From a virus: 44,956 nucleotides of DNA. Below, piece by piece: positions 1,446 to 44,956 of the stretch; positions within the stretch are counted from its first letter, which is position 1, and each line of letters begins with the position of its first letter. Location: positions 1-44,956 of the IMG/VR virus record IMGVR_UViG_3300002140_000145; one strand, 5' to 3'. Under the pieces are notes generated by a model. It searched no databases. It was not told where the DNA came from and was given only the letters and a program-made list of their open reading frames with translations. Made by a program: the position numbers and the translations under genes.

Positions 1446-1469
1446 GTGATCTCCAGTTATGTTAATACT

Positions 1470-1498: not shown

Positions 1499-1499
1499 C

Positions 1500-13000: not shown

Positions 13001-13573
13001 CCGCCAAGTAATGATGAATTATTTAGGTCATACGGTAAAGAAATTAATAAAATTAAATCAATCAGCGACGAAGTAATTTATCATCCAGTAAAATACAAAA
13101 TCTTATTTGGTGCAAAGGCTAACACGGATCTACAAGTGAAATTTAAAATTGTTAAAAATAAAGATATTGTATTAAATGACAATGAACTTAAATCTGATAT
13201 TATTACAGAGGTCAACCGATTCTTTGAAACTGAAAATTGGGACTTCGGTGAAACATTCTACTTTCAAGAACTTAGTGCATATATTATGAATGCACTAACT
13301 CCAAAATTAGTAAGTATAATTATTGTTCCGAGACAATCAACACAATCATTTGGTAGCTTGTTTGAAATAAAATCCGAAGTTGACGAAATTTTTGCAAGCG
13401 GTGCAACAGTAAGTGACGTAGAGCTAATAGACGAGCTTACTGCAACCGAATTACAATCAAGCGGAGCAGTAATTACAAGTGTAACAACTGCAATAACATC
13501 TGGGCTAACAAGCGCAGCAAGTACACCGAGTACAACAAATACCAGTAACACAGGTGGAGGATACAGTTACTAA
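10088..13573 (+). CDS. 6: gp6 baseplate wedge subunit (long form)
   Basis: A 1161-aa relative of T4 gp6, which forms the inner ring of the baseplate that holds the wedges together. The N-terminus is diagnostic: [60 protein letters not shown] and [10 protein letters not shown]. The C-terminus contains [20 protein letters not shown] followed by LSAYIMNAL and VSIIIVP, a baseplate-J-like dimer region. It is much longer than T4 gp6 (660 aa); the middle part, about residues 480-960, is beta-rich and carries an acidic [10 protein letters not shown] segment that could bind a divalent ion. The last 60 residues are Ser/Thr/Ala-rich. ATG 10088 has AAGGAA upstream. Its TAA overlaps the next ATG (TAATG), with GGTGGAGG just before. 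Confidence 0.92.
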
Positions 13574-28500: not shown

Positions 28501-28785
28501 GAAGTATTTGCTGCTGGTGTACGTTTGCGCAAGAATAGTATTGAAGTTTTTGACCCGACTGTGGCCCTAGACAGTCCGTTAGGCGATATTACTATTCCGG
28601 CAGAATTTACTTTTGATGCAGAAACAAATACTATTACAATAGCAGACGTTCCTGTAGAAGAATCTAAGATAATTGTTGTGAAAAAAGTAGGCCAGATATG
28701 GACACCTGTGGGTGTTGCGCTAGGTGACGTGGAAAATTCAATTGGTCGATTCTTGAGAGCAGGAACTTCTGCGCTGCCAGAATAA
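13573..28785 (+). CDS. Giant 5070-aa virion protein in the gp7/gp8 position (baseplate/fibre adhesin-like)
   Basis: One uninterrupted frame of 15.2 kb, about a third of the window. The N-terminus (residues 1-160, [32 protein letters not shown]) and a segment near 1120-1300 ([33 protein letters not shown]) match my memory of very large structural proteins behind gp6 in marine T4-like phages. Repeats follow: CBM5/12-like aromatic modules near residues 1525, 1783, 2293, 2921 and 2972 (for example [20 protein letters not shown]); FG-GAP-like propeller blades near 2207-2280, 2834-2910 and 3050-3260 ([19 protein letters not shown]); paired GxGYxxxP modules near 3674 and 4036; and, from about 4180, repeated 'VNGxxL....DY' beta modules. 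No enzyme signature or long coiled coil is visible. It probably forms outer baseplate or a host-contact fibre; a gp7 role is inferred from position only. Confidence 0.75.
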
Positions 28786-29417: not shown

Positions 29418-31472
29418 ATGGCATACGAAATTAATTATACCGATACTGTTAACAAAGGATCGATTGTTGTAGAAGACGGAGCACTTAATACTGAAACTAG
29501 TTTAAGTTTACCTGGAAGATATACAACGGCATACGGTCAAGCAGTAAGCGAAAACTTTTTACATTTGTTAGAAAACTTTGCAAACGATACTGCGCCAAAT
29601 CGTCCTGTAGAAGGGCAATTATGGTACGACACAACTAGTGGAGTAGATCAACTTAAAATATATGACGGTACTAATTGGGTAGCAAGTGGCGGACTTAAAA
29701 AAGCCAGCGCAGCACCGGCAGTATCAAATTCAAGTGCAGGTGATTTGTGGGTTAACACAGAAAGCCAACAGCTATATTTGTTTACAGGCAGTGCATGGGT
29801 ACTAGTAGGACCAGACTTTAGCGACGGACTGCTAACTGGTGCGCAATCACAAGCAATTGTAGGAACAGATGACGTTACTTATAATGTGTTAGTAATTAAA
29901 ATTGAAGATCAACCTGCAATTATTATTAGTACTCAGGCGTTTATTCCTAAAACTGCAATTAAAGGATTTAGATCAGGTATCAGTCCTGGTATGAATATTG
30001 CTAACGAGGCAATTGTCGGTACACAAACTTTAAAATATTATGGTACTGCTGAAAAAGCCGAAGCATTGGTTATAGCAGGAGAAACAATTGCTGCAAGTAA
30101 TTTCTTAAGAGGCAATGCAAGTTCAACAACTGACTTTGATTTAAAAATTAAAAATAATGAAGGTGTTAAAATCGGAACCGGCGGCCAGTTAAGTATTGGT
30201 ATTGACGGCGAGTTAGGAGTTATTCAGCATAATACAAGTGGATCTAGTATTAATTTTAGATTACGCAACGGAACTTCAACACCGACAGTACTTACAGTTG
30301 ATTCTAGCGGTAGTGTTGGCATTAATAATAGTGCTCCAGAGGAAAACTTAGATCTAAAAGGCAACTTTAAAATTTCGCCTATTACTGGATTGCCAGACAC
30401 TGGATTTATACAAATCGATAGTACTACTAACAGTACTAATATTAATACAGGTACACTTATTACTAAAGGCGGCGCAGGCATTGCAAAGGACGTTTATGTT
30501 GGCGGAAATATTGATGTAGGCGGAATATTACAAACTGGAAATATTGTGCCCGACTTAAATAGTTCAAGAAATATCGGAAACACAGCACAGCGTTATGACC
30601 AAGTTTATGCAAATACATTTTACGGAAACGTACAAGGTAACGTAAGTGGAACGATTAGTGGTAGAGCAGGCAGTGCCGACAGACTAGCAAGTGCTACAAC
30701 TTTTGCACTAAGCGGTGATGTAGATCCTGCAAGTTTTGAGTTTGATGGGCAAACAGGTGGCAGCACAAAAACATTTGATGTAAGAATTGGAAACAGTTTT
30801 ATCTCAAATAAAAATGTAATATACGATGCTGGCAATGCAGATGAACTATTATTAAACGTAACAACTGGCACAACTGGTGTTTATAGAATTACAAAGCGTA
30901 ACTTCTTAAAATCAATACCGCTTGTACCGGCAGGGGCAATGATGCCGTATGGTGGAGAAGAAGCACCTGATGGTTGGTTACTATGTGATGGTTCAGAAGT
31001 TAGAAAATCAGATTTTACATTACTATGGGAATCAATTGGTCATAATTTTAAAGATGCAAGTTTGATTTCTGATTCAGGCGTTAACTTTTTTGCACTGCCT
31101 GATATGAGAGGCAGATTTCCGTTAGGTCTTGATAACCTAGGCGGTCCGAGTGCAAACCGTGTAACTAATATTGCTGCTGACGCAATTGGCGGAAATGCAG
31201 GCACAGAAGCAACTAATATTTCAGTTGCAAACTTACCTGAACATGAACACGACTTAGAAGGCGAAAGCGGCACGCAATTCTACGGAGTTAGAGTAGGTGC
31301 AGGAGAACCAACAGACGATAATGCTATTACATTGCCTATCGAACCCGGCTTAGGTGGTACACAAGGTATTGCATCTAGTGGTGGTATTAAAACTACTAGT
31401 ACACTAGGCACTGCTTTGAATGTTATGAATCCTTTCTTAGCCCTTAACTTTATAATTTACACTGGACAATAA
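29418..31472 (+). CDS. Tail fibre paralogue 1 with C-terminal tail-collar domain
   Basis: A 684-aa fibre protein. Residues 1-150 are the module shared with the next two genes: NFLHLLENFAND..., EGQLWYDTT, LKIYDGTNW, then a second turn GDLWVNTESQQLYLFTGSAW ending VGP. The middle (about 200-480) is a repetitive beta shaft with GSVGINNSAPEENLDLKGNF and NIGNTAQRYDQVYANTFYG, typical of phage fibre stems. Residues about 505-684 form a phage tail-collar domain (PAGAMMPYGGEEAPDGWLLC, DGSEV, FALPDMRGRFPLGLDN) like that of T4 gp12-type short fibres, with histidines in LPEHEHDLEG that could bind metal in a trimer tip. AAGGA precedes the ATG. It likely acts as a receptor-contact fibre. Confidence 0.8.
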   Translation: MAYEINYTDTVNKGSIVVEDGALNTETSLSLPGRYTTAYGQAVSENFLHLLENFANDTAPNRPVEGQLWYDTTSGVDQLKIYDGTNWVASGGLKKASAAPAVSNSSAGDLWVNTESQQLYLFTGSAWVLVGPDFSDGLLTGAQSQAIVGTDDVTYNVLVIKIEDQPAIIISTQAFIPKTAIKGFRSGISPGMNIANEAIVGTQTLKYYGTAEKAEALVIAGETIAASNFLRGNASSTTDFDLKIKNNEGVKIGTGGQLSIGIDGELGVIQHNTSGSSINFRLRNGTSTPTVLTVDSSGSVGINNSAPEENLDLKGNFKISPITGLPDTGFIQIDSTTNSTNINTGTLITKGGAGIAKDVYVGGNIDVGGILQTGNIVPDLNSSRNIGNTAQRYDQVYANTFYGNVQGNVSGTISGRAGSADRLASATTFALSGDVDPASFEFDGQTGGSTKTFDVRIGNSFISNKNVIYDAGNADELLLNVTTGTTGVYRITKRNFLKSIPLVPAGAMMPYGGEEAPDGWLLCDGSEVRKSDFTLLWESIGHNFKDASLISDSGVNFFALPDMRGRFPLGLDNLGGPSANRVTNIAADAIGGNAGTEATNISVANLPEHEHDLEGESGTQFYGVRVGAGEPTDDNAITLPIEPGLGGTQGIASSGGIKTTSTLGTALNVMNPFLALNFIIYTGQ

Positions 31473-31474
31473 AA

Positions 31475-33364
31475 ATGAGCTATCAACTAAACAAGACAGA
31501 CGGAACACTGCTAATAGATCTAATTGATGGGCAGTTAGATACAAACAGTACTAACCTTACTCTTGTTGGTAGGAATTATAGCGGATATGGCGAAGCATTT
31601 AACGAAAACTTTATTAAGTTATTAGAAAATTTTGCAAATACTGCTGCTCCTAGTAATCCTCTAACTGGGCAAATTTGGTGGGATACTAACGCCCAAAGAT
31701 TAAAAGTTTATGACGGCAGTGTATGGAAAGCAAGCGGCGGCCCGTTCGTACAAGATACTAGACCACAAATGGTTGCAGGCGACTTGTGGATTGATAATCT
31801 AAATAACCAAGTATATGCATATGACGGTACTGATACTATTTTAATTGGCCCACAATATACTGAGTCTCAAGGTAAAAGTGGATTTGAAATAGGCAGTATA
31901 TTAGATTCTCAAAGTCGATCACGTACTGTAGTTTATCTATATATTGGAGGCACACTTGCTGGATTGTATTCTAATTTAGAATTTACACCAATATATGCTC
32001 AACGTATTGCAGGATTAATTACTGATACAAATCCTAACAGCATAATCTACGAAGGGTTTAACGTTATTAATAAAGCTACGTTTAAGTTCTTAGGCATTGC
32101 TGAGTCAGCAAACGCACTGGTTACAGCTGGCGGCACAGTTAGAACTGCTGACAGTTTCCTTCCATCAACTGCTAACGGTATTACCACAGGTACACTAACG
32201 ATTCAAAACTCAGGTGGTTTAACAATCGGTACTTCACAAAATAACGTACAAAAAGTCATCGGTTCTCGTTTTTATATTGAGAATCAATTACGTGATCATG
32301 ATATCAGTTTGCGTGTACGTTCAAGTGCATTTGAATCTGTTATTGTTGACGGTATCTACATTGATGCAAGTGCAGCACGAGTTGGTATATTTACAACTAA
32401 CAGACTTCCGGAATACACACTTGATGTTGAAGGTGATTTAAGAGTTACTGGCGATTTAATTGTTGAAGGCGATGCAACTAGAGTAGAAGTTGCTATATTA
32501 CAAGTTGAAGATAAAAATATTGAGTTAGGATACATTAATGATAGTACCGGCGCTGATGATGTTTTAGCAGACGGCGGCGGCATTACATTATTATCGTCAG
32601 ATGGTAATAAAACAATTAACTGGATTAATGCAACAAATTCATGGACATCAAACCAAATATTTAATTTATCAACATCTAGTTTGACATACAACATTGGTGG
32701 CAGCGTTAAGTTAACAAATACAAGTTTAACAAATATCACTAAAGCATTAGACTTAAATGAAATCGGAACTCTAATTAGTTTACAAGTTGATGAAATTAAT
32801 GTTAACGGTAAGACTATTTCTTCAACTAACGATCTAAGAATAACATCGACTGCTGGAATTGCCATTGTTGCTAACGGAGACATATCAGTTGATTCACACA
32901 AAATTACAGGAGTATCAAATCCGACCAATGCCCAAGATGTAGCAACTAAAATTTATACTGACACAGAAATTGCAAATGAAACAATTGTATTCAGCATGGA
33001 TATCACGGGTCTAGGATCAGGTACAGTATTACAAAATGCAGTTGCATTATATTTACAAGACTTATATCCTGCGTCTGCATTAGCTTTTGGAAAAATTGCT
33101 AAAATTCATACTACTTCTTATGCTGGTGCAACAGTTAGCGGTATTCCTGTAACAGTTACAATTGCTCCTAATAATACAGGAACATTAACTAAGTCCTACA
33201 TCAGTGTAGATGCCAACGGCACACTTAATGAACCAGTAGTGCAGGATATTGTTGCATCTAATACAACATCGGGTGCTATTGTTTTAACACCGACACGGGC
33301 ATTAATGACTTATGCAGCGAGTAGTACATCGTGGATTCATCAGGCAACAGTCGCCTATCCGTAA
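31475..33364 (+). CDS. Tail fibre paralogue 2
   Basis: A 629-aa fibre protein starting two bases after the previous stop, so probably translated by re-initiation (only a weak GGA upstream). Residues 1-150 carry the same module as its neighbours: NENFIKLLENFANT, GQIWWDTN, LKVYDGSVW, GDLWIDNLNNQVYAYDGTD, LIGP. The middle includes a paired 'GIAESANALVTAGGTVRTAD' shaft segment like that of paralogue 1 (YYGTAEKAEALVIAGETIAA). Later come YTLDVEGDLRVTGDLIVEGD, a shaft repeat, and AQDVATKIYTDTEI near 490, a common fibre motif. The C-terminal ~130 residues (VFSMDITGLGSGTVLQNAVA...) match no domain I know; no collar is present. Confidence 0.75.
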   Translation: MSYQLNKTDGTLLIDLIDGQLDTNSTNLTLVGRNYSGYGEAFNENFIKLLENFANTAAPSNPLTGQIWWDTNAQRLKVYDGSVWKASGGPFVQDTRPQMVAGDLWIDNLNNQVYAYDGTDTILIGPQYTESQGKSGFEIGSILDSQSRSRTVVYLYIGGTLAGLYSNLEFTPIYAQRIAGLITDTNPNSIIYEGFNVINKATFKFLGIAESANALVTAGGTVRTADSFLPSTANGITTGTLTIQNSGGLTIGTSQNNVQKVIGSRFYIENQLRDHDISLRVRSSAFESVIVDGIYIDASAARVGIFTTNRLPEYTLDVEGDLRVTGDLIVEGDATRVEVAILQVEDKNIELGYINDSTGADDVLADGGGITLLSSDGNKTINWINATNSWTSNQIFNLSTSSLTYNIGGSVKLTNTSLTNITKALDLNEIGTLISLQVDEINVNGKTISSTNDLRITSTAGIAIVANGDISVDSHKITGVSNPTNAQDVATKIYTDTEIANETIVFSMDITGLGSGTVLQNAVALYLQDLYPASALAFGKIAKIHTTSYAGATVSGIPVTVTIAPNNTGTLTKSYISVDANGTLNEPVVQDIVASNTTSGAIVLTPTRALMTYAASSTSWIHQATVAYP

Positions 33365-33370
33365 AAACGA

Positions 33371-33376
33371 TAAATA
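33371..33376 (+). promoter_or_regulatory. T4-type late promoter core (TAAATA) before fibre paralogue 3
   Basis: GATAAATAAC in the 40-base gap, 28 bases before ATG 33405; AGGGG at 33390-33394 serves as ribosome site. Confidence 0.62.
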
Positions 33377-33404
33377 ACATAATAGCACTAGGGGTTACAC
33401 AAAC

Positions 33405-34895
33405 ATGGCTTATCAGATTGATAGATATAATAATACATTATTAGCAGTAGTCGAAGACGGCACTGTTGATCAAACAACCGATCTAAAGTTTATCGGCAAA
33501 AACTATGCCGGTTACGGCGAAATACAAAACGAAAACTTTTTGTTTCTTCTAGAAAACTTTGCAGGCGCAAATACACCGGCAAGACCCTTAGGCGGGCAAG
33601 TATGGTTTGATAGTGCAAATAGTAAATTAAAGTTTTATGATGGTACTCAGTGGAGAACAACAGGCGGATCTGAAACTTCAGCTTCTGAACCGACTGGACT
33701 AGCCGCTGGTGATTTTTGGTGGGATAGCGCTAACGATCAGTTATATGTATACAATGGTGTTAATTTTATTCTAATCGGACCACAAAATGCAGGCGAAGGT
33801 GTAACTCAAATGCAAAGCATAGAAGTATTAGATACAACTAGTGCTACTAGAGGTATTATTGCTGCAACAATCGAAGACGAAGTCGTATTTATTATTAGTC
33901 CAAATGAATTTGACTTAAATGTAACTACACCAATTACTGGATTTGACAGAATCAAACGCGGCCAGACTATGGCATGGACAAAAATTGCTGACGCAGGTGT
34001 AACTAACAGCGAAAGTGTTGTAGGACGCGACTTTAGATTCTGGGGAACAGCATCAAACGCTGAAAAACTAGGTGGCGTAGCAGCTTCAAACTTTGTACAA
34101 ACAGGTGCAGGTAATACAGTATTTGCAAGTGCAGTTGAATTTCCAGATAGCGGACTTCTTATCGGAGATTCACAAGATTTTCAAATAATTGTAGAAAATG
34201 GTTCTGAAGGTGTCATTCAAAATGTGAGCGGTAATAATAGCGTTATCAAATTAAAAACAACTAATACTACAGGTACAGTAACACATGTAGCAACTGTTAG
34301 TGCAACTGGAATAATAGCAGCGGCTGATAATACATTTGATTTGGGGTCAGCAAGTTTACGCTGGAAAGATATATATGCAGTTAACTTTGTAGGCGAAGCA
34401 ACAAAGGCATCTACATTAAGAGTCGGAACTGATTTCCGCAGTGCAAGCGTTAGTACAACAAACAATACAGTTGCAGTTAGAGATGCAACGGGTAATATTG
34501 CTGCAAACCTATTCCAAGGTACTGCAACGCAAGCACGTTACGCTGACTTAGCAGAAAAATATTCAACAGCAGAAGAATTAGCTGCTGGAACAGCAGTAGC
34601 AGTATGTACATGTGAAGATCACGAAGTAGAGCCTGCAACTGCAAGTAATCATTGCATAGGAGTTGTTTCAACGCAGCCGGCTATTATGATGAACAGCGAT
34701 GCTGAAGGGCAATATATAGCACTTAAAGGTCGAGTTCCGGTAAGAGTTAAAGGCGCAGTTGTTAAAGGCCAAGCAGTATATGCAATGGCAGACGGCGTGT
34801 CTACTACACTTGCAACAACAGCACTAGTGGGAATTGCATTAGAGAGCAATAGCGATGAGGGTGAAAAATTAGTCGAATGTGTACTTAAGGTATAA
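33405..34895 (+). CDS. Tail fibre paralogue 3 with peptidase-G2-like C-terminus
   Basis: A 496-aa fibre protein. The N-terminal 150 residues repeat the shared module (NENFLFLLENFAG, GGQVWFDSANSKLKFYDGTQ, GDFWWDSANDQLYVYNGVNF, LIGP). A short shaft contains NTFDLGSASLRWKDIYAVNF and an ATQARYADLAEKY motif. The last ~115 residues (AGTAVAVCTC, HCIGVVSTQPAIMMN, YIALKGRVPVRVKGAVVKGQ) are the fibre-tip domain related to peptidase G2/autoproteolytic fibre domains in marine phages. Three cysteines (CTCEDH and NHC) occur close together here, unusual for the structural genes in this window. Whether it self-cleaves cannot be read from sequence. Late core plus AGGGG lie upstream. Confidence 0.75.
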   Translation: MAYQIDRYNNTLLAVVEDGTVDQTTDLKFIGKNYAGYGEIQNENFLFLLENFAGANTPARPLGGQVWFDSANSKLKFYDGTQWRTTGGSETSASEPTGLAAGDFWWDSANDQLYVYNGVNFILIGPQNAGEGVTQMQSIEVLDTTSATRGIIAATIEDEVVFIISPNEFDLNVTTPITGFDRIKRGQTMAWTKIADAGVTNSESVVGRDFRFWGTASNAEKLGGVAASNFVQTGAGNTVFASAVEFPDSGLLIGDSQDFQIIVENGSEGVIQNVSGNNSVIKLKTTNTTGTVTHVATVSATGIIAAADNTFDLGSASLRWKDIYAVNFVGEATKASTLRVGTDFRSASVSTTNNTVAVRDATGNIAANLFQGTATQARYADLAEKYSTAEELAAGTAVAVCTCEDHEVEPATASNHCIGVVSTQPAIMMNSDAEGQYIALKGRVPVRVKGAVVKGQAVYAMADGVSTTLATTALVGIALESNSDEGEKLVECVLKV

Positions 34896-34906
34896 AAGGA
34901 ACCATC

Positions 34907-35836
34907 ATGGCAGATATTACAGCAGCACGAATTAATAATTTACAGTCTAGAGTTGAATTAATTTTAGGAACAGGCGCAGGACAGCGAGGATACGGTCAAT
35001 CTATATCAAGTGGTCCTGTAGATCCGTTACTTGGTATTATACAAGCTGAAGATTTAAATAATATTTATGCTGACACCTTAGCTGCAAGAATCCATCAAGT
35101 AGGAGTAAGCGATATTGGCGTCGCCGAAGTTATTCAAAACTTGAACATTGTCGCAGAAGAAACTAGTAACTTTATTAACGACAGCGGCACAACTTCTACA
35201 GATCCTGCTGGCACTAAAAAAGGTATTGCAGACTTTGAACGACTAATGACTAGTATCGAAGTTGATCGATTTTTAATTAATGCGTCACAGGCGTCGCTTG
35301 AACCTGCAATTAACTCAACTCGAACATCTGCATGGAATGGTCTAATTTATCATGAAATATCCGTTACGTTTGCTGATGCAGATCATCGTCGTTATTTCTT
35401 TAATACAGGCGGAGAAATTAGATTTAATCCTGCTAACACTTCAGCAAGCACTCCAAAAGGTCTAGACTGGTTTGATCTATGTGACGATGTCGGCACAGTA
35501 AAATTTAATTACAATTCAACAGTGTCAACAGGAGACGGCTCTGGGCAACTAATCGGTAATTATCAGCTAACTACAACATACCAAACTGTATTTCGAAAAA
35601 TAGGCACCGGTACATATAGTAATGTATATGCTGGAAATATTTTTACTATTAAGGCTAAGCAAAACAGTAGTAATATAATTATGTTTAGAATTGAATTTGA
35701 AGATGCTGTATTTGATAATGCTATTGATAACAATGTTGATGGCAGACTAACCAGCACAGTAGAACATTTTAGAGCTGATTCAGAATTTGTATCAGTTGCT
35801 GCTCCTAGTTACTTTAACAATCATTCTCTGGCATAA
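34907..35836 (+). CDS. Putative fibre/structural protein A, paralogue of next gene
   Basis: A 309-aa protein behind the fibres, preceded by AAAGGAACC. It shares a full-length plan with the next gene: RINNLQSRVELILGTGAGQR-type N-terminus, a glycine/tyrosine GYGQ, 'ADTLAARIHQVG', 'EVDRFLINAS', a central 'WNGLIYHEISVTFADADHRR' with 'FFNTGGEIRF', 'IGNYQLTTTYQ' and a final 'RIEFEDA.. LTSTVEHF'. The conserved FFNTGGEIR resembles a beta-rich distal fibre or accessory domain. No catalytic motif is visible. Position suggests a virion accessory protein that co-assembles with the fibres. Confidence 0.6.
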   Translation: MADITAARINNLQSRVELILGTGAGQRGYGQSISSGPVDPLLGIIQAEDLNNIYADTLAARIHQVGVSDIGVAEVIQNLNIVAEETSNFINDSGTTSTDPAGTKKGIADFERLMTSIEVDRFLINASQASLEPAINSTRTSAWNGLIYHEISVTFADADHRRYFFNTGGEIRFNPANTSASTPKGLDWFDLCDDVGTVKFNYNSTVSTGDGSGQLIGNYQLTTTYQTVFRKIGTGTYSNVYAGNIFTIKAKQNSSNIIMFRIEFEDAVFDNAIDNNVDGRLTSTVEHFRADSEFVSVAAPSYFNNHSLA

Positions 35837-35864
35837 TAAATTTTATGTGAGATAACTACTTACA

Positions 35865-35870
35865 TAAATA
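35865..35870 (+). promoter_or_regulatory. T4-type late promoter core (TAAATA) before structural protein B
   Basis: CATAAATACTT, 16 bases before ATG 35887, with GAGAGA as ribosome site. This is the last late core I see on the plus strand before the sigma70-type promoter at 36906. Confidence 0.62.
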
Positions 35871-35886
35871 CTTTGAGAGAAAACGA

Positions 35887-36894
35887 ATGCCAACAACTAC
35901 ACCTATTGAAGCCACTAGATATAATACCTTAAGGACACTAGTAAATAAGATATTAGGGCCGTCTACAGTAGCGACTAAAAACTATGGATACGGTCAGGCA
36001 TTTAATTCTTTAGCTGTGAGCGGTAGTAGAGCTAATCCAACACTAGTTAATGCTGATACAATTACTGCTGAACAATACGAAGAATTATATCTTGATTTGA
36101 TAAGGACTCGTATTCACCAAATAGGATCAGCAGCAGTATCAGTTGATCCATATGTAACTGGCAATTATAATACTAATTTATCAAACACTGATAAAGTTGA
36201 ACTTGCATATACACAAGCACTCGAATCACTAGCAGCAACAATCGAAACTAATAGATTTTTAATACATACTAGCACTCAAGCAGACGTTGTAAACTTGACT
36301 ACATCTGCATCTGCTCCTATTGTAAGTATTCGGTTGAACGCCGTTTCGGGCAATTGGAACGGCGTACTAACTCACATATTTCAAGTAAAATTTGCAACAG
36401 CATTAGAGCGTCAACAATTTTTTAATGCAGGCGGCGAAGTTCGAATGAGTGCAAGAGTCACTTACGGCGGAAGTAACCCTAAAACAGTTGACTGGCAAAC
36501 TGAATTATCTGCTATGGGAGTTATCAGTTTTAAGGCTAACCAAACATTATCAAATAATGCAGTTGGCACAGGTTACAGTATTGGCAATTTTAATCTTACA
36601 AGCTCTTATCAATTATGTTATTCTAAAGCTGGAGGCTCGGCATATTTTAGAAACGATTATACAATATGGGCATTAGCAGTGAACGATACTACAGTTCAAA
36701 TTAAAGTAGAATTTGACGACGGACAGCCTAATAATACTACTTACGGTATTGACGAACCGGTTCTTGGTGACTTAACAAGTACAGTACAATTATTACAACC
36801 GAGCGGTTCTGCAACAATAAACGGTGTAGTGTACGATACAGTAGTAATACCTGATAATCAATTACCTGACGGCGTTCCAATTTCTAATCTTTAA
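35887..36894 (+). CDS. Putative fibre/structural protein B, paralogue of previous gene
   Basis: A 335-aa protein with the same block order as protein A: RYNTLRTLVNKILG, YGYGQAFN, LYLDLIRTRIHQIG, ETNRFLIHTS, a central NWNGVLTHIFQVKFATALER and QQFFNAGGEVRM, IGNFNLTSSYQLCY, and VEFDDG...GDLTSTVQLLQP. The pair therefore arose by duplication, with diverged loops. B has an extra C-terminal tail (VPISNL). A GC-rich inverted repeat (ACGCCGTT at 36338-36345 and AACGGCGT at 36358-36365) lies inside the gene. It has its own late core and GAGAGA site. Function unknown; virion accessory role inferred from location and promoter. Confidence 0.6.
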   Translation: MPTTTPIEATRYNTLRTLVNKILGPSTVATKNYGYGQAFNSLAVSGSRANPTLVNADTITAEQYEELYLDLIRTRIHQIGSAAVSVDPYVTGNYNTNLSNTDKVELAYTQALESLAATIETNRFLIHTSTQADVVNLTTSASAPIVSIRLNAVSGNWNGVLTHIFQVKFATALERQQFFNAGGEVRMSARVTYGGSNPKTVDWQTELSAMGVISFKANQTLSNNAVGTGYSIGNFNLTSSYQLCYSKAGGSAYFRNDYTIWALAVNDTTVQIKVEFDDGQPNNTTYGIDEPVLGDLTSTVQLLQPSGSATINGVVYDTVVIPDNQLPDGVPISNL

Positions 36895-36905
36895 TCAATA
36901 ATCAC

Positions 36906-36934
36906 TTGACAATCTTAGGTATCTAATATATAAT
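36906..36934 (+). promoter_or_regulatory. Consensus sigma70 promoter of the glycosyltransferase/radical SAM operon
   Basis: TTGACA (36906-36911), a 17-base spacer, TATAAT (36929-36934): perfect consensus, equal to that of gene 55. Start expected near 36941, with TTGGAG before ATG 36958. No TAAATA core accompanies it, unlike the upstream structural genes. Confidence 0.87.
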
Positions 36935-36957
36935 AGTAGTATATATTGGAGATTAAT

Positions 36958-37308
36958 ATGGATGAACGCTTAGAAAAAGCATTAGAGTTTGGTAACTTTA
37001 CTAAAACACTAAACGATCAGCGCCGGATGCTCACTGAAAAATATCATGAAGATTTAATATTTTTCTATCAAGGTGCTCAATTTACATTGACTCAGACGTT
37101 AATATCATTTGTAGCAACTTTAATACAAACAGGCAACAATACATCTGTTATAGCAGATGATAATAACACTCCTATTAGAATTGACAACTTAAAAGACTTT
37201 AATGAAGATATTTTAAACTTGTATACAAGCGCCTCAAATAGTTACTTTACTGAATATCAACAAATAAAATCTAATAGAAGTATAGAAAAATTAATTAGTC
37301 ATGAGTAA
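36958..37308 (+). CDS. Small conserved phage protein, function unknown
   Basis: A 116-aa, mostly helical, acidic protein, first in the sigma70-driven operon. I place the start at ATG 36958 (MDERLEKALEFGNF), because GGAG lies at 36948-36951; a TTG twelve bases earlier would overlap that site. The pattern 'MDE.LEKALEF.N....L..Q' with a later '[20 protein letters not shown]' and 'EYQQIKSNRSIEKLI' resembles a small protein I recall from marine T4-like phages, without known function. No membrane segment or enzyme motif is visible. It overlaps the next gene by eight bases. Confidence 0.65.
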   Translation: MDERLEKALEFGNFTKTLNDQRRMLTEKYHEDLIFFYQGAQFTLTQTLISFVATLIQTGNNTSVIADDNNTPIRIDNLKDFNEDILNLYTSASNSYFTEYQQIKSNRSIEKLISHE

Positions 37309-38155
37309 GGGTGTAGTATTACTAGCAGTTAATACTACTAATGTTGATTATGTAAAGCAAGCATATTATCTTGCCAAACGTATTCACAAATACATAAATG
37401 TACCAGTTAGTATTATAACCAATTCTGTTGAATATGTAAATAAAAACTTCAATGATGGCGTGTTTGATAATGTTATTAAAGTACCTGACGATAGTACACA
37501 GTCTAATACTCGTTTAATATTTGACGGAGCATTTAGTAAAAAAACAATAAACTGGAAAAACGGTAATAGAGCAAGTGTATATGAGTTAACGCCGTATGAT
37601 GAAACATTAGTGTTAGATACTGATTTTATTATTTCTAATTCTATACTTGCTAACTGTTTTAATAGTATACATGATTTTCTAATATATAAACATTCACTGG
37701 ATGTTTCTAATATTCGTACTGTAACTGAATTTACTCGTGTTAGTGATACAAGCATAGACTTTTACTGGGCTACTTGTGTATTTTTTAGAAAGACTGATAT
37801 TAATAAAATATTTTTTGATCTAATTAATCATATTAAACAAGAATGGAATCATTACAAGTCAGTCTATCAACTATCAACTAATACATTTAGAAATGATTAT
37901 GCATTTAGTATTGCTATTCACATAATGAACGGGTTCCAACGTGGTAATTTTGCACATGCTCTACCGGGTAAGATGTATTATTCTATTGATCAAGATATCC
38001 TGCATGATATAATTGATGATAAAATTATACTGCTTATACAAAAACTGGACTACTTTGGAGAATATACTCTTTTAAAAACAACCGGTCTAAACATACACGT
38101 AATGAATAAGGCTAGTCTCGAACGAGTAATTGACAAGGAGATAACAGATGAGTAA
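37301..38155 (+). CDS. GT-A-like glycosyltransferase, paralogue 1
   Basis: A 284-aa putative sugar transferase. The N-terminus GVVLLAVNTTNVDYVKQAYY followed by LAKRIHK and VPVSIITN is a Rossmann-like nucleotide-sugar domain; LVLDTDFIIS near residues 103-112 is the DxD metal motif of GT-A enzymes. The C-terminal half is variable and rich in N, I and F. It shares the same layout with the next gene (LAxxSxxVxYVxQA, SIIT, YxETxVLDTDxI), so the two are duplicates, about as diverged as separate substrates would allow. Start overlaps the previous gene's end by eight bases (ATGAGTAA). The acceptor is unknown; fibres or host surface glycan are guesses from position. Confidence 0.7.
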   Translation: MSKGVVLLAVNTTNVDYVKQAYYLAKRIHKYINVPVSIITNSVEYVNKNFNDGVFDNVIKVPDDSTQSNTRLIFDGAFSKKTINWKNGNRASVYELTPYDETLVLDTDFIISNSILANCFNSIHDFLIYKHSLDVSNIRTVTEFTRVSDTSIDFYWATCVFFRKTDINKIFFDLINHIKQEWNHYKSVYQLSTNTFRNDYAFSIAIHIMNGFQRGNFAHALPGKMYYSIDQDILHDIIDDKIILLIQKLDYFGEYTLLKTTGLNIHVMNKASLERVIDKEITDE

Positions 38156-38990
38156 TGGTATTTTGGTATTAGCGCAAAATAGTGAAAAAGTTAATTATGT
38201 TGATCAAGCATGTGCGTTAGCATTAAGCATTAAAAAATCTAACCCAACTACACCTATATCTATTATTACAGATGACATTATAGAAGAGTATGCAGTTAAC
38301 TTGTTTGATAAAATTATTCCAATTCCGTGGGGCGATCTTGCAAATAAATCAAACTGGAAAATAGAAAATCGTTGGAAAATTTATCACTGTTCTCCGTACA
38401 ACGAAACTATAGTGTTAGATACCGATATGATTGTATTACAGGATATAAGTCATTGGTGGAAATTTTTAAAAAATTATGATGTATTTTTCACAACAAATGT
38501 TATGACTTATCGAGATACATTGTTAACAAGTAATTTTTATCGAAAAACATTTGAGTCAAATAATCTACCTAATTTCTATAGCGGATTCCATTATTTTAAA
38601 AAGTCTGATTTTGCACATCAGTTTTATACATATTTAGAATTAGTAATGAATGAATGGAAAAAGTTTTATGATATATTTTTATTAACAAATTGTCCCCAGA
38701 ATGTAAGTGTAGATGTATGTGCAGCAATAGTAGCAGTGTTACTTGATTGTGTAGATGACGTTTCAAATCGTTTAGCAAAGATTCCGTATTTTATTCATAT
38801 GAAGCCGCAAGCACAAGACTGGACTACTCCGTCGACGTATTGGCAAGATAGTGTAAATGCGTATGTTTCAAACGATGGTTCTATTAAAATAGGTAACCAC
38901 TTACAATCTGGTATATTACATTATACAGAAAAAAACTTTTTAGAAAATACAAATATTATAAAAAAATATAGAGGACTGTTAAATGTCTAA
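38148..38990 (+). CDS. GT-A-like glycosyltransferase, paralogue 2
   Basis: A 280-aa homologue of the preceding gene. It has GILVLAQNSEKVNYVDQACA, PISIITDD, then NWKIENRWKIYHCSPYNETI, and the DxD motif in VLDTDMIVLQD near residue 88; NFYSGFHYFKKSDFAHQFYT lies in the acceptor half, and IHMKPQAQDW with a C-terminal LHYTEKNF complete the pattern. The 'SGFHYFKKS' segment is GT8-like in style. AAGGAG is well placed before the ATG, which overlaps the previous stop by eight bases. No membrane segment is seen, so it is probably cytoplasmic. Substrate unknown. Confidence 0.72.
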   Translation: MSNGILVLAQNSEKVNYVDQACALALSIKKSNPTTPISIITDDIIEEYAVNLFDKIIPIPWGDLANKSNWKIENRWKIYHCSPYNETIVLDTDMIVLQDISHWWKFLKNYDVFFTTNVMTYRDTLLTSNFYRKTFESNNLPNFYSGFHYFKKSDFAHQFYTYLELVMNEWKKFYDIFLLTNCPQNVSVDVCAAIVAVLLDCVDDVSNRLAKIPYFIHMKPQAQDWTTPSTYWQDSVNAYVSNDGSIKIGNHLQSGILHYTEKNFLENTNIIKKYRGLLNV

Positions 38991-39594
38991 TATGATAAAT
39001 TTTTTAAATCAATTAAAGTTACAGTGTTCTAATGAATTAATAACTTATGTTTATTACAATAAAGACGATGGCTGCATACATAAAATTTCATCAAGAAATA
39101 TCCCAACTATTGATTACAACATCTTAGAAGTACCCACTTCGCAAGCAGAGCCGTTGACGTCGGGTACTAAGCAAACGTCTGACTATAAAGTTACATTTGA
39201 TGTAATAACTAAAACTATACAGTTAAAAGAAGTACTGCGAGATAATAAATTAACAGTTAATGAAAAACTTTATCGTATACCAGATACTACAGGAGAAGTC
39301 GACCTTTCTATTATTAAAGACAACAATAAAAATAAATGGGTATTCACATTAAGTGACGAACTTACATATTTTTTTACCAATCATTCTCCAGCACCTGCTA
39401 CTGGATTGTTACAATTTAGTGTAACGACATTTGACGATCCTAATATATTATATAGAACAATTAATATTAATGTAGAAAATTTAATAGCAAACCGTATTGA
39501 AATACCATTTCAATACTTGTTTGAAACAGATGGCACAGATGTAAGTATATACACTAGTAAATATTTTCAACTATATGGATTCACCGTACTATGA
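38983..39594 (+). CDS. Beta-rich protein of unknown function within the modification operon
   Basis: A 203-aa orphan between two glycosyltransferase-like genes. After a short helical start (MINFLNQLKLQCSNELITYV) it is predicted by eye as mostly beta: KVTFDVITKTIQLKEVL, NKWVFTLSDELTYFFT, RTININVENL. Only one cysteine is present and there are no catalytic motifs or signal peptide. It overlaps its neighbours by eight and four bases, so it is made with them. It may be a small structural or acceptor protein for the operon's enzymes; I do not recognise it. Confidence 0.6.
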   Translation: MSNMINFLNQLKLQCSNELITYVYYNKDDGCIHKISSRNIPTIDYNILEVPTSQAEPLTSGTKQTSDYKVTFDVITKTIQLKEVLRDNKLTVNEKLYRIPDTTGEVDLSIIKDNNKNKWVFTLSDELTYFFTNHSPAPATGLLQFSVTTFDDPNILYRTININVENLIANRIEIPFQYLFETDGTDVSIYTSKYFQLYGFTVL

Positions 39595-40529
39595 CAACTA
39601 AACTTAAAGTAATTGATTGTGATATAATCTATCTCAGCTATGATGAGCCTAATGCAGAGAAAAATTATGCAGACCTTTGCAAAAAAATTCCATGGGCAAA
39701 ACGTGTACACGGCGTAGAAGGCAGTGATGCTGCTCACAAGGCTTGCGCAGAAATAAGCGAGACAAATCGGTTTATTACAGTTGACGGTGATAACACTATT
39801 GAGACAGAATTCTTACAACAAGAAATAGAGTTTAAAGACACTACTGATTTTGAAGAGTGCGTTGTTAGTTGGGCTGCTTACAATCAAATTAACGGTTTAA
39901 TTTACGGCAACGGCGGACTTAAATGCTGGCCAAAAAAATATGTACAAAATATGCGCACACACGAAGCAGCAGATCCGAATAATAAACAAGCTCAAGTAGA
40001 ATTTTGCTGGGATGCCCGGTATATACAAATAGATAAATGTTTCTCAGTAATTCATAATAATGCAACTCCGCATCAAGCATGGAGAGCAGGATTTCGTGAA
40101 GGTGTTAAGATGTGTTTAAATGTTGGAACTAAACCGGCATCGTCAGAAGATTTTTTTAAAAATCATTGGTTAAATTTACATAGAGCATATATTTGGATGA
40201 ATGTCGGAGCTGACGTAAAAAACGGCCTATGGGCAATCTACGGTGCAAGAGAAGGCCTACATAAAACAATGTGTACGGATTGGGACTATGTTCAAGTCCG
40301 TGATTTTAAATATCTTAACAGTCTTTGGGATAATGAATACAGTAAAATTACAGAAGATATGTTGAGATATGAAATTATGGGATTAGGTGAAACATTAATA
40401 CACGAACTTGATCTTCCTATTGGAGTAACGCCATTAGATGAACAGCAAAGTAAATTTTTTAAAACAGTATATCAAAGTCCTGCAAGAAGAATTAATCTTC
40501 GCAACCAACATGTTATAGATACAGAATGA
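39591..40529 (+). CDS. Glycosyltransferase-like protein (DxD type, phage family)
   Basis: A 312-aa protein. CDIIYLSYDEPNAEKNYADL opens the protein, followed by KRVHGVEGSDAAHKACAEIS and FITVDGDNTIE near residues 58-68, where DGD is a likely DxD nucleotide-sugar/metal motif. NGLIYGNGGLKCWPKKYVQN and HQAWRAGFREGVKM follow. This set recurs in phage proteins I know as glycosyltransferase-like, often beside radical SAM genes. It is unrelated in detail to the two paralogues upstream. ATGA overlaps join it to both neighbours. Activity is inferred; acceptor unknown. Confidence 0.62.
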   Translation: MTTKLKVIDCDIIYLSYDEPNAEKNYADLCKKIPWAKRVHGVEGSDAAHKACAEISETNRFITVDGDNTIETEFLQQEIEFKDTTDFEECVVSWAAYNQINGLIYGNGGLKCWPKKYVQNMRTHEAADPNNKQAQVEFCWDARYIQIDKCFSVIHNNATPHQAWRAGFREGVKMCLNVGTKPASSEDFFKNHWLNLHRAYIWMNVGADVKNGLWAIYGAREGLHKTMCTDWDYVQVRDFKYLNSLWDNEYSKITEDMLRYEIMGLGETLIHELDLPIGVTPLDEQQSKFFKTVYQSPARRINLRNQHVIDTE

Positions 40530-41947
40530 AAGATAATTTAAAAGGTGACGAGGTCAAACTGCTCAAAGGAAAATATTTATCGAAATATTTTGAAAGCAGT
40601 AAAGACTTATTACAAGCACTAAATTCAATTAGTCCTAGTTTCTGTTTAGCTAAATGGTTTAACGTAAGTTTACATTTGCCTACAGGTAAAACTCACAGTT
40701 GCTATCATCCGCCTGCACATTATATTCCGTTAGACGAATTAAATGCATCGCCTGACGCACTGCATAATACAAAACACAAGCAAGAGCAGCGTAAAACTAT
40801 GCTTGAGGGTAAACGGCCCAAAGAGTGTGAATTCTGTTGGGCAATTGAAGATCAAGGTAACATAAGTGATCGAGCTTACCGTAGTCAAGATGTGTATGAG
40901 CCTGGACTAATTGAAGAAGCAATAAAAGAAGTTAAATCACCTAAACCTAGATATGTAGAAGTTAATTTTAATCAAGCATGCAATTTAAAGTGTGCTTATT
41001 GTAGCCCGCACTTGTCCACTGAATGGCACAAAGAAGTAAAACAACACGGTGCATATAAGTTAATCAACGGCAATCATAATGATCCAGTTTGGGTAGACAA
41101 TTTAGGTATTGATAATAGCCCTACTAGTCCGTATGTACAAGCATTTTGGGAATGGTTCCCTACAGTATATCCGACACTAAAAACTTTTAGGATGACAGGC
41201 GGCGAACCTTTAATGGACAAAAATACATTTAAAGTATTTGACTACGTTAAAGAGAATCCAAATAAGCAACTTCAATTAAGTATAACAAGTAATTGTTGTC
41301 CGCCGAAAGGACAATGGCAAAAGTTCATTGCTGACTTAAAAGAAATTACAGATTTAGATGCTATTGATCACTTTATGCTGTTTTGCAGTCTCGATAGTTG
41401 GGGTAAGCAAGCTGAGTATATACGGCATGGACTCGACTTTGATCAACTATACAAGAACGTTACACATTATTTAAAGCACAGTTCTAAGCACAGTGTAACA
41501 TTTATCATTACTGCTAATTTATTAAGTTTACCAAATTGGGTAGAATACATTAAAAATATACACACGTTACGTTGTGAATATAATACAGATAGGCAATTGA
41601 TATGGTTTGATACGCCAATGCTTCATGATCCAAAATGGATGAGCATGAAGCTAGCAAATAAAGAAATGTTACAATCTTTGCTAGATAGCATTGTGTTCAT
41701 GGAACAAAATATTGAAACTTCAAATAATAGATTTAAAGGATTTAAGGATTATGAAATTGATAAAGTCAGAAGACTGTACGAATGGGCAAGTGTACCGTTA
41801 AATACAAAAGACGACGTATTAGCTAGAAAAAATTTCGATTTGTTTTTTAAACAGCACGATATTAGACGCAGTACAGACATTAGGAAAACCTTTCCACAAT
41901 TAGAATTATTTATTGAAGAATGCAGGATATTAAATGAGCAGAGATAA
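40526..41947 (+). CDS. Radical SAM protein with N-terminal twitch/SPASM-like cysteines, paralogue 1
   Basis: A 473-aa putative radical SAM enzyme, which would cleave S-adenosylmethionine at a 4Fe-4S cluster to start radical chemistry. The cluster motif CNLKCAYC gives Cys152, Cys156 and Cys159 (CxxxCxxC); the SAM-binding GGEP is at 225-228. Ahead of it lie Cys40, Cys59 (SCYHP), Cys101 and Cys104 (CEFCWAIED), spaced like ligands of an auxiliary cluster such as in twitch/SPASM domains, which normally follow the core. Start overlaps the previous stop (ATGA); no clear Shine-Dalgarno, so translation is probably coupled. It is a clear duplicate of the next gene. Substrate unknown; peptide, sugar or nucleotide modification are all possible. 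Confidence 0.82.
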   Translation: MKDNLKGDEVKLLKGKYLSKYFESSKDLLQALNSISPSFCLAKWFNVSLHLPTGKTHSCYHPPAHYIPLDELNASPDALHNTKHKQEQRKTMLEGKRPKECEFCWAIEDQGNISDRAYRSQDVYEPGLIEEAIKEVKSPKPRYVEVNFNQACNLKCAYCSPHLSTEWHKEVKQHGAYKLINGNHNDPVWVDNLGIDNSPTSPYVQAFWEWFPTVYPTLKTFRMTGGEPLMDKNTFKVFDYVKENPNKQLQLSITSNCCPPKGQWQKFIADLKEITDLDAIDHFMLFCSLDSWGKQAEYIRHGLDFDQLYKNVTHYLKHSSKHSVTFIITANLLSLPNWVEYIKNIHTLRCEYNTDRQLIWFDTPMLHDPKWMSMKLANKEMLQSLLDSIVFMEQNIETSNNRFKGFKDYEIDKVRRLYEWASVPLNTKDDVLARKNFDLFFKQHDIRRSTDIRKTFPQLELFIEECRILNEQR

Positions 41948-43289
41948 AAGAGTAGACGATGTAGCAAAGCGATTAAACGCAATTGGTCCTGGATTTTGTA
42001 CTCAAAAATGGCTACACGAAACGCTATATTTGCATACTGGTGACAATCATAGTTGTTACCATCCTCGTCCTCAACATATTCCCTTAGAGGAAATTGCAGC
42101 AGATCCGAGTGCATTACATAATACTAAATGGAAAAAGCAACAACGTAAAACTATGCTTGAAGGCGGCAGACCAAAAGAGTGTTACTATTGTTGGAACATT
42201 GAAGACTTGCCCGGTGAACATTTGTCGGATAGAATGTTTCATAGTGCTAGTAGTTATTCAGAGCCTATAATTGAAGAAGTAGCTAAACTTCCATGGGACG
42301 CTAATATTAATCCTCGATACTTAGAAGTTAGTTTTGGCAACGGCTGCAACTATCGTTGTGGATATTGTTGCCCGCAATCAAGTACATTGTGGATGGATGA
42401 AATTAAAAAACACGGCAACTACGATCTAACATACAACCAATACGGAATTGAATTTTTAGAAAACGGTACATACTACGGTCCTAAAGATGAAAATCCGTAT
42501 ATTGAAGCATTTTGGAAATGGTGGCCTGATTTGCGTAAAGACTTACATACATTACGCATTACTGGCGGCGAACCTTTAATGAATCCGGGCGCTATGCAAT
42601 TTTTTGATCTATTAGAAAAAGAACCTGCTCCGCAATTAGCGGTTAGCATTAATAGTAACTTAGGAGTAAGTTTTGCTAAGACAGATCGTATGCTTGAAAG
42701 AGTACAAAGTTTACTCGATCAAAAGAAAATTAAACAGTTTACCCTTTTTACTAGTATTGACACATGGGGACCTCAAGCAGAATATATGCGTACAGGCATG
42801 AATTTAGAACATTGGGAACGTAATCTTAAAAAAGCGCTATCTATGGGATTTGAAGTTAACTTGATGTGTACATTCAATGTATTATGTGTAACAAACTATA
42901 AAAGTTTGATGCATAAGATGATAGAATGGAGAGCAGAGTTTGGTAAGAACGCAATTAGATTCGATGTTCCTTATTTAAAAGAGCCGCCGCACTGGATGAT
43001 TAATATACTACCAGTTGAATTTATGTCATACATGGATGATACATTAAAATTTATTGATGACAACATGGATAACTTTAAACCTCAAGAATACGAAAAATTT
43101 AAACGATTAACGCAATATATGAGGACAAATCCTGTAGATCCAAAAACGATTAAACAAGGTCAACGAGACTTTTATAGCTTTTTTAAAGAAAACGATAAAC
43201 GAGTGGGATTAAACTTATTAGAAGTTTTTCCTGAGTATGCAGAATTTTATGATTACTGCAAAGGAGTATACGAAAATTATGATCAATGA
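41934..43289 (+). CDS. Radical SAM protein with N-terminal twitch/SPASM-like cysteines, paralogue 2
   Basis: A 451-aa homologue of the preceding gene. Shared N-terminal block: Cys22 (GFCTQKW), Cys41 (HSCYHP), ALHNTKWKKQQRKTMLEGG, and Cys83/Cys86 (CYYCWNIED). The radical SAM motif CNYRCGYC gives Cys138, Cys142 and Cys145, followed by another Cys146; GGEP is at 211-214. TFNVLCVTNYKSL and the late HWMINILPVEF agree in position with paralogue 1 (TANLLSLPNWVEY, KWMSMKLANKE). It overlaps the previous gene by 14 bases with AGGATA as ribosome site. Two near copies kept side by side suggest two related substrates or a heterodimer; this is inference. Confidence 0.83.
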   Translation: MSRDKRVDDVAKRLNAIGPGFCTQKWLHETLYLHTGDNHSCYHPRPQHIPLEEIAADPSALHNTKWKKQQRKTMLEGGRPKECYYCWNIEDLPGEHLSDRMFHSASSYSEPIIEEVAKLPWDANINPRYLEVSFGNGCNYRCGYCCPQSSTLWMDEIKKHGNYDLTYNQYGIEFLENGTYYGPKDENPYIEAFWKWWPDLRKDLHTLRITGGEPLMNPGAMQFFDLLEKEPAPQLAVSINSNLGVSFAKTDRMLERVQSLLDQKKIKQFTLFTSIDTWGPQAEYMRTGMNLEHWERNLKKALSMGFEVNLMCTFNVLCVTNYKSLMHKMIEWRAEFGKNAIRFDVPYLKEPPHWMINILPVEFMSYMDDTLKFIDDNMDNFKPQEYEKFKRLTQYMRTNPVDPKTIKQGQRDFYSFFKENDKRVGLNLLEVFPEYAEFYDYCKGVYENYDQ

Positions 43290-44484
43290 CACTAATAAAA
43301 CTTCTTGGTGTGTAAATGCATATCATGCAATGTCAGGTATGAACGACGGCACAACAAAAATTTGTTGTATGCATCGGCCCAAAGAACGTTCAATGACATT
43401 AGGTAATAATACACTTGATGAAATAATGAGTAAAGATGAATTTGTTGATATTCGTAATTCTTTAACAACTGGTGAGAGACATCAAGGTTGTAATTTATGC
43501 TGGGACGAAGAAGATGCCGGACGCCAAAGTAAACGACTAAGAGATAATGAACGGTACTTTCACGAAATTAAATACAGCGGACGAACACCTTATCAGGGAC
43601 TAGCAAAAGTAGAATTAAACCTAGGTAACACTTGCAATATTAGTTGTAGAACCTGTAATGCTTGTGTAAGTAGTGGGTGGATGAAAGAAGCATTTGAAGT
43701 ATACGAAAGTGACAAAACAACATTTAAAGAATTTGCTAAATCTTTAAAAAAATATCATCAATCGTACGATGATAAAAGTCCGTTTTGGAAAGACATTGAG
43801 GACCATTTACCTACTATAAAACAGTTTGACTTTTACGGCGGCGAGCCCTTTATGATTAAAAAACAGTGGAGTCTTTTAGAAACGGCTGTTAGCCTAGGAT
43901 ATGCATCTGAAATTGAATTACACTATAATACAAACGGTACACATTGGCCTAAAGAAGTTGAATTATGGAAACACTTTAAAAAAGTTAATTTAAGTTTTAG
44001 TATTGACGGATTTGGTAAACAATTTGAATATATGCGTTATCCCGCAAAATGGGATCTAGTACAAACAAATATGGAAAATGCTAGAAAGTTAGCAGCAGAA
44101 TATAAAAATATTGATCTAAGTTGGTGTGTAACTATTAGTACACTTAATGTATTTAATGTTCCTGAAACCGTAGAATATTGGAGAAATAATTATAGAGATA
44201 TAGGGTTGTATCTTAATCTAGTACACGAACCGGCACACTACAGCATAAGAAATCTTCCAATAGACATAAAGGATATAGTAATTGAAAAATTAAATACAGT
44301 TCCTAAGTCAGATGGCAAGTCTTGGAGTTATCTACCAGGAATAATTAATATGATAAAAGATTCACATCCTAACGAAAAAGAATGGAAAGTATTTTTAGAA
44401 ACAACAAAAAAGCACGACAGTTACAGGAAGCAAACGTTTAAAGATACATTTCCTGAATATGCTAAACACATTAAAGGTCTATAA
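43279..44484 (+). CDS. Radical SAM protein with N-terminal SPASM-like cysteines, third copy
   Basis: A 401-aa enzyme more distant from the two before. I start it at ATG 43279 (MINDTNKTSW), because AAGGAG lies at 43261-43265; an upstream in-frame ATG (43237) has no such site. Cys11 (SWCVNAYH), Cys29/Cys30 (KICCMH), a 'LGNNTLDEIM...IRNSLTTGE' helix and Cys71/Cys74 (GCNLCWDEED) closely follow the SPASM layout. The radical SAM motif CNISCRTC gives Cys119, Cys123 and Cys126, and GGEP is at 187-190. The C-terminal ~190 residues have only one late Cys (SWCVTIST). It overlaps the previous gene by 11 bases and the next by one. Confidence 0.83.
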   Translation: MINDTNKTSWCVNAYHAMSGMNDGTTKICCMHRPKERSMTLGNNTLDEIMSKDEFVDIRNSLTTGERHQGCNLCWDEEDAGRQSKRLRDNERYFHEIKYSGRTPYQGLAKVELNLGNTCNISCRTCNACVSSGWMKEAFEVYESDKTTFKEFAKSLKKYHQSYDDKSPFWKDIEDHLPTIKQFDFYGGEPFMIKKQWSLLETAVSLGYASEIELHYNTNGTHWPKEVELWKHFKKVNLSFSIDGFGKQFEYMRYPAKWDLVQTNMENARKLAAEYKNIDLSWCVTISTLNVFNVPETVEYWRNNYRDIGLYLNLVHEPAHYSIRNLPIDIKDIVIEKLNTVPKSDGKSWSYLPGIINMIKDSHPNEKEWKVFLETTKKHDSYRKQTFKDTFPEYAKHIKGL

Positions 44485-44956
44485 TGAATAATTTTTGGAA
44501 TTATACAGAACTTGATCAGCTACATATTGAATTAACTAACGCATGTAACGCAGCGTGTCCTATGTGTGTAAGATTTCATAATTCTAGCACATTAACACGA
44601 CCAGATCTAACAATCCAACAAATTACTTTAGAAAAATTTAAAGAATGGTTACCTCCTGAAATTATTAAAAAATGTAAATTAATCTTATTCTGCGGTGTAC
44701 ACGGTGATCCGTGTATTGCTAAAGACTTTTTAGAAATTTGCCAATATATATCAGAAGTAAGTAATACGACACGAGTTCAGTTTAATAGTAACGGCGGCAT
44801 GCGCACACCTGAATGGTGGGCCAAAGTAGGAAAATTATTTGCTGATAATAAAAATAGAGAATGGTCTGCTGTGTTTAGTATTGACGGACTTGCAGATACT
44901 AACCATATATATCGACGACATGTTGTTTGGGAAAAATTAGAATCAAATGTAAAAGC
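44484..44956 (+). CDS. Radical SAM protein, different subfamily, 3' part outside window
   Basis: The first ~157 residues of a fourth radical SAM gene, cut by the right window edge. HIELTNACNAACPMCVRF carries Cys21, Cys25 and Cys28 (CxxxCxxC) near the very N-terminus, with no preceding cysteine block. The GGEP position is replaced by CGVHGDPCIAKDF, a variant seen in some radical SAM families. VFSIDGLADTNHIYRR then follows, a typical core strand. Start overlaps the previous stop (TAATG) with AAAGG upstream. Because its architecture differs, it probably does another step than its three neighbours; any C-terminal auxiliary domain would lie outside the window. Confidence 0.8.
   Translation, partial: MNNFWNYTELDQLHIELTNACNAACPMCVRFHNSSTLTRPDLTIQQITLEKFKEWLPPEIIKKCKLILFCGVHGDPCIAKDFLEICQYISEVSNTTRVQFNSNGGMRTPEWWAKVGKLFADNKNREWSAVFSIDGLADTNHIYRRHVVWEKLESNVK

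Follow-up and report, generated by a model that had tools for sequence, protein, structure and literature searches.

A conserved glycosyltransferase-like core and exchangeable radical SAM genes behind the tail fibres of an uncultured marine T4-like virus

Here, we analyze a cassette of nine genes that lies directly behind the tail-fibre cluster in a 44,956-nt virus fragment, IMG/VR record IMGVR_UViG_3300002140_000145 (this whole stretch is called the window below). The genes are, in order, g1, GTa, GTb, g4, G5 and S6 to S9, the last four encoding radical S-adenosylmethionine (SAM) proteins. Judged from the gene order in relatives, the first five genes are a fixed core and the radical SAM genes are interchangeable cargo. 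A sigma70-type promoter stands in front of the cassette, and the fibre and other structural genes use a late-type motif; the cassette is therefore probably transcribed apart from the fibres, by host polymerase. The arrangement suggests a toolkit used to re-decorate either the host surface or the virus particle. What the sequence itself shows is the order of the genes, their families and catalytic motifs, the two promoter classes and the swapping of cargo.

Gene order and promoters

All nine open reading frames (ORFs) of the cassette are present on the plus strand, and each junction from g1 to S9 overlaps, by 8, 8, 8, 4, 4, 14, 11 and 1 nt in order, exactly the lengths given in an earlier note on this DNA. 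The 11-nt overlap of S7 and S8 requires that S8 start at 43279, after the ribosome-binding site AAAGGAG, rather than at the longer ORF start, 43237. The most likely start of g1 is the ATG at 36958; family members open with MDERLEKAL, and the ORF list has a TTG at 36946. The core consists of g1 (36958 to 37308, 116 aa), GTa (37301 to 38155, 284 aa), GTb (38148 to 38990, 280 aa), g4 (38983 to 39594, 203 aa) and G5 (39591 to 40529, 312 aa). The cargo begins with S6 (40526 to 41947, 473 aa), S7 (41934 to 43289, 451 aa, 36% identical to S6) and S8 (43279 to 44484, about 401 aa), followed by S9 (44484 to 44956), which is cut by the window end. A second contig, L006, matches the window end at 12615/12625 bases and holds the complete S9 (427 aa, L006:12153-13436). 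The gene run extends beyond this ninth gene: a tenth, G10, begins 109 nt downstream on L006 and encodes a protein of 446 aa whose C-terminal part is homologous to G5.

Two scans of viral contigs yielded 138 loci, with GTa and GTb side by side in 113 of them (about 110 contigs); the dereplicated sets comprised 59 lineages for the gene after G5, 52 for the tree and 50 for the g1 promoter. These relatives keep one fixed order, fibres first and then g1, GTa, GTb, g4 and G5. The g1 gene adjoins GTa, upstream of the GTa-GTb pair, in 109/113 loci, while G5 lies downstream, across a single gene slot, in 112/113; profile comparison assigns that slot to one fast-evolving family, g4, in 108/113. Fibre-type genes lie directly upstream of the core, with few exceptions, wherever the locus extends that far.

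What follows G5 varies. The next gene is S6-like in 26 of the 59 lineages and S7-like in 13, and is otherwise G10, S8, a methyltransferase or another gene; on the 52-lineage tree of GTa, GTb and G5 this state changes at least 16 times. The cargo families include radical SAM proteins, UDP-glucose/GDP-mannose (UDP-sugar) dehydrogenase, a GDP-mannose dehydratase-type epimerase and methyltransferase, among others. The quartet S6-S7-S8/S9 occurs 37 times, and nine of these loci show no G5 upstream. On nine contig fragments of this kind neither a core G5 nor a GTb match was found, the GTb search having been run without a positive control; three of them carry weaker G10-type matches only. The earlier view that all nine genes constitute one conserved pathway is therefore rejected: with at least 16 cargo changes over 52 lineages, the core is fixed and the radical SAM cargo is exchanged, also appearing on contigs with no core detected. 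What does hold is that a tightly coupled set of glycan and radical-chemistry genes accompanies the fibres in relatives. Nor are four radical SAM genes as rare as had been supposed. Twelve long related contigs carry 4-15 matches each to the N-twitch radical SAM model, together with one G5 and one G10-type domain apiece, and a paper of 2017 describes 12 radical SAM genes in TARA_ERS488813_N000010, an environmental genome of a marine T4-like virus (PMC5332604). As a separate observation, one 1058-aa frame in the L077 region (G008:C1:54217-55857, minus strand) contains both G5- and G10-type domains, a fusion linking the two proteins.

The single consensus sigma70 promoter noted earlier in front of the nine genes is a 12/12 match (TTGACA-17-TATAAT, 36906 to 36934, plus strand), and it lies within the 63 nt that separate the fibre cluster's last gene from the start of g1. 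Across the 50 dereplicated lineages, a sigma70-type site matching at 10/12 positions or better precedes g1 in 36, against 7% expected from a Markov model, and one of at least 11/12 in 31, against 0.4% expected. Such sites are found before 1% of fibre genes, 8% of their neighbours and 2-5% of the S6-S9 genes. The only other 12/12 site in the window is at 1498 on the minus strand, before the gene for a gp55-like late sigma factor (597 to 1487, minus strand).

The structural genes carry a different signal. ATAAATA is depleted in the window (10 observed versus 29.6 expected), and all six copies on the plus strand, at 7072, 9583, 10057, 28782, 33370 and 35864, lie 11-38 nt before structural genes, the last two of them in the fibre cluster and none in the cassette. 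A CTAAATA (1499-1505, plus strand) likewise stands ahead of the first structural gene. Across the loci, 219/349 plus-strand copies of ATAAATA fall within the 5.5% of sequence just upstream of plus-strand genes, and [AC]TAAATA precedes 37-88% of fibre-cluster genes, compared with 0-3% of cassette genes after g1. This distribution indicates that [AC]TAAATA is likely the late promoter of this phage group. The T4-type late promoter TATAAATA was considered and discarded, with 0 copies found against the ATAAATA/CTAAATA motif, and we found no paper that describes TAAATA as a late promoter of marine phages. A position behind the fibres thus does not imply expression with the fibres, since the cassette has its own sigma70-type promoter and the fibres have the late-type motif. 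We also note that the late sigma gene and the first structural gene are separated by an intergenic region with a 12/12 sigma70 promoter on one strand (1498, minus) and the late motif on the other (1499, plus).

The predicted enzymes

The earlier note had counted three glycosyltransferase-like proteins, and the count stands more firmly for GTa and GTb than for G5. A sequence-profile match to solved glycogenin (E 5e-7), combined with an invariant DxD motif (D91xD93), places GTb as GT8/glycogenin-like. GTa by itself reaches only E 0.8 in such a profile comparison; it has an invariant D106xD108 and is homologous to GTb (99.9% in hhalign), and by this comparison it is a paralogue of GTb. Both are therefore predicted sugar transferases of the GT8/glycogenin-like type, and neither has a Pfam match. 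The G5 family likewise has an invariant DxD (D65xD67), but nothing above a chance-level match was found between its sequence and solved structures, and hhalign gave no link to GTa or GTb. The AlphaFold model of G5 (predicted local distance difference test score, pLDDT, 87) matches GT-A/nucleotidyltransferase folds in Foldseek with probability 0.9-0.99, and weakly so by E value (about 1e-3) and template modelling score (about 0.3). The SunS/ThuS S-glycosyltransferases are among these weak matches. The remaining core protein of note, g4, is beta-rich and fast-evolving (mean column identity 36%; model pLDDT 91); its structural relatives are confined to uncultured phages, and comparison of its fold with solved structures gave no convincing match.

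The four proteins read earlier as radical SAM enzymes are upheld as such, and all carry the CxxxCxxC motif. S6, S7 and S8 score 316, 309 and 335 bits against NF033640 (N_Twi_rSAM), whose curated cut-off is 170 bits. Their motif cysteines are C152xxxC156xxC159, C138/142/145 and C133/137/140, respectively, with additional N-terminal cysteines at 40, 59, 101 and 104 in S6, at 22, 41, 83 and 86 in S7, and at 25, 43/44, 85 and 88 in S8. S9 is different. With 53 bits its fragment stays under the cut-off, and S9 is accordingly kept out of NF033640; it falls short of two Pfam models as well (PF04055, 21.6 versus 29.5 bits; PF13186, 21.4 versus 21.5 bits). Invariant cysteines at C21, C25, C28, C294, C320, C321, C388 and C392 point to a SPASM-like radical SAM protein. 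Among solved structures, SkfB is the best match to the S8 profile (1.5e-9).

Bacterial relatives of the NF033640-type proteins come mostly from Bdellovibrionota, are 24-31% identical and often adjoin other radical SAM genes. Their neighbourhoods were rejected as a guide to the substrate, being uninformative: of 76 neighbours, 22 are other radical SAM genes, two are GT2 genes and one is a carbamoyltransferase gene. Three loci on contigs binned as bacterial metagenome-assembled genomes (L147, L162 and L175; MED685 and MED657) have same-strand gene runs around an N-twitch radical SAM gene and may be mis-binned phage. In another relative the cargo includes a B12-binding radical SAM protein (L017:16647-18569). 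Beyond G10, L006 encodes a methyltransferase and a Nod/Cmc-type carbamoyltransferase (L006:14873-16286, minus strand) that face the cassette.

Candidate functions

We tentatively favour the reading that the cassette is a separately transcribed glycan-modification operon that alters the surface glycan of the infected cell, a lineage-specific decoration that hides the receptor; we hold it at a little under an even chance. The timing, substrate and biological effect that we infer are as follows. Located in the host-recognition island, a hypervariable region of this large, T4-related marine phage, the operon could be started by host RNA polymerase with its primary sigma factor before the late sigma factor turns on the fibre genes. 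The core would supply glycosyltransferase-like enzymes and a fast-evolving partner protein, and the swappable tail would supply unusual sugar chemistry. In this virus the tail is made up of four radical SAM enzymes with a G5-like protein behind them; relatives also have UDP-sugar dehydrogenase, epimerase and methyltransferase there. The altered glycan would hide the receptor from competing or sister phages (receptor masking, superinfection exclusion).

Sugar-nucleotide dehydrogenase, epimerase and carbamoyltransferase are the usual enzymes of surface-sugar pathways. The building or alteration of a glycan is argued by the combination of GT8-like transferases, UDP-sugar dehydrogenase, GDP-mannose dehydratase-type epimerase, nearby carbamoyltransferase and radical SAM proteins, and a fixed core with swapped cargo is as expected for arms-race decoration. 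The GT8 genes of an analogous island in pelagimyophages have been read likewise (PMC7029224). Several points weigh against such an operon. The strict physical link to fibre genes would be superfluous for a function at the host surface, and among the core genes we recognised none for a membrane protein, flippase or polymerase. The profiles of the radical SAM proteins match enzymes that act on peptides (SkfB) and others that act on sugars (BtrN, BlsE), and polysaccharide loci are not where the bacterial relatives chiefly lie. In addition, the g1 promoter is missing in about 28% of lineages, a late-type motif precedes g1 in about 9%, and late transcripts of the fibre operon may run on into g1.

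The nearly universal position of the core directly behind fibre genes, and the presence between the transferases of a small, fast-evolving, beta-rich protein, make virion modification a serious rival, if on balance an unlikely one. Here the glycosyltransferase-like and radical SAM enzymes would act on fibre or tail proteins, or on g4, during assembly, and so tune receptor binding or mask the virion; mycobacteriophages are known to glycosylate their virions (Freeman et al. 2023, cited in PMC12619734). However, the cassette promoter is of the sigma70 type, unlike the late motif of the fibre genes, and the sugar-nucleotide cargo would suit surface glycans equally or better. Transcription of a separate, host type, together with the frequent exchange of cargo, speaks somewhat more for lineage-specific remodelling of the host surface than for decoration of the fibres. 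Another, improbable reading would make g4 itself a hypervariable acceptor, glycosylated by the core transferases and then diversified by the interchangeable radical SAM enzymes, giving a modular, sigma70-switched, lineage-specific glycoprotein or surface tag.

It is equally improbable that the radical SAM enzymes have a peptide or protein as their substrate, in the manner of ribosomally synthesized and post-translationally modified peptides (RiPPs), and that the glycosyltransferase-like enzymes glycosylate the product. The SkfB match of S8 and the SunS/ThuS matches of G5 would favour this scheme, but both are generic to their superfamilies; the annotated ORFs include no recognisable gene for a precursor peptide (ORFs below 60 aa were not systematically searched), and we recognised no RiPP recognition domain, peptidase or exporter either. 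Less probable still is that the transferases and radical SAM proteins modify nucleic acids or nucleotides (hypermodified phage DNA, tRNA or nucleoside chemistry). Phage glycosyltransferases do often glycosylate DNA (PMC7029224 and PMC12619734), but we saw no gene for nucleotide modification in the vicinity of the cassette, which lies in a host-recognition island and not in a replication module, and the sugar-nucleotide cargo and carbamoyltransferase point to surface sugars.

A fixed five-gene core, swappable chemistry and a separate host-type promoter together make a defined, testable unit, for which the choice between fibre and host surface can be answered by expression timing and mass spectrometry. 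If the cargo does alter the sugars of the host surface, these phages would offer a large and so far unexplored supply of radical enzymes that modify sugars.

The phage and comparable islands

The source is a large uncultured marine T4-like virus. The window contains T4-related myovirus genes for the gp55-type late sigma factor, a gp5-like baseplate hub protein and gp25-like and gp6-like wedge proteins; the gp6-like protein is closest (35-37% identity) to those of the jumbo phages Phosso, Atu_ph07 and SCTP-2, and contigs that bear the core reach 382 kb. A single ORF at 13573-28785 encodes a giant virion protein of 5070 aa whose N-terminus matches phrog_10938, and which is probably the VrlC-type baseplate protein here. 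It is followed by the fibre cluster (29418 to 36894, plus strand; upstream of the core in relatives as well), with three fibre genes and two related genes at 34907 and 35887, and then by the cassette. The third fibre gene (33405-34895) matches Peptidase_G2, a fibre domain with autoproteolytic activity, at a score below the threshold.

Contrary to an earlier suggestion that the system is of an undescribed kind, hypervariable host-recognition islands with GT8 and radical SAM cassettes are already known in marine T4-like phages. The nearest described counterpart is the host recognition cluster (HRC) of pelagimyophages and cyanomyophages (PMC7029224), a hypervariable island behind a VrlC-type baseplate gene. 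It contains tail fibres along with GT8-type glycosyltransferases and UDP-glucose dehydrogenase, and its radical SAM cassettes are gained and lost. Assuming the VrlC equivalent above, the window too has a variable island with fibres and glycosyltransferases after VrlC. Further marks of such a cluster are an end at the neck gene gp14 and a SAR11 host; the window and L006 stop inside the island. There are also differences from the HRC. A search of 50,697 phage records detected no relative of the cassette's g1, GTb or G5, and none of G10 or S6 either, and the nearest isolates by baseplate protein are the jumbo phages. In the part of the HRC paper available we found no mention of a fixed five-gene core or of a conserved sigma70 promoter. 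The genome TARA_ERS488813_N000010, likewise marine, T4-like and rich in radical SAM genes, is set beside the window by description alone; we found no description of a glycosyltransferase core and promoter of this arrangement in the part of its report available (PMC5332604). What is new here is the evidence on transcription, a separate sigma70-type promoter as against the late-type motif of the fibres.

A more distant likeness is found in the Vibrio phages K566 and K567, marine phages of about 255 kb with interleaved radical SAM and GT8 genes and NF033640-like proteins of 23% identity. Their gene order differs, no relatives of g1, GTb or G5 were detected, and there is no clear sigma70 promoter (the best site matches at 10/12 with an 18-nt spacer). 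An annotated PagP in K566 was not used as support, as Pfam did not confirm it. Both phages are cultured, and their distant radical SAM-GT8 cluster gives experimental access.

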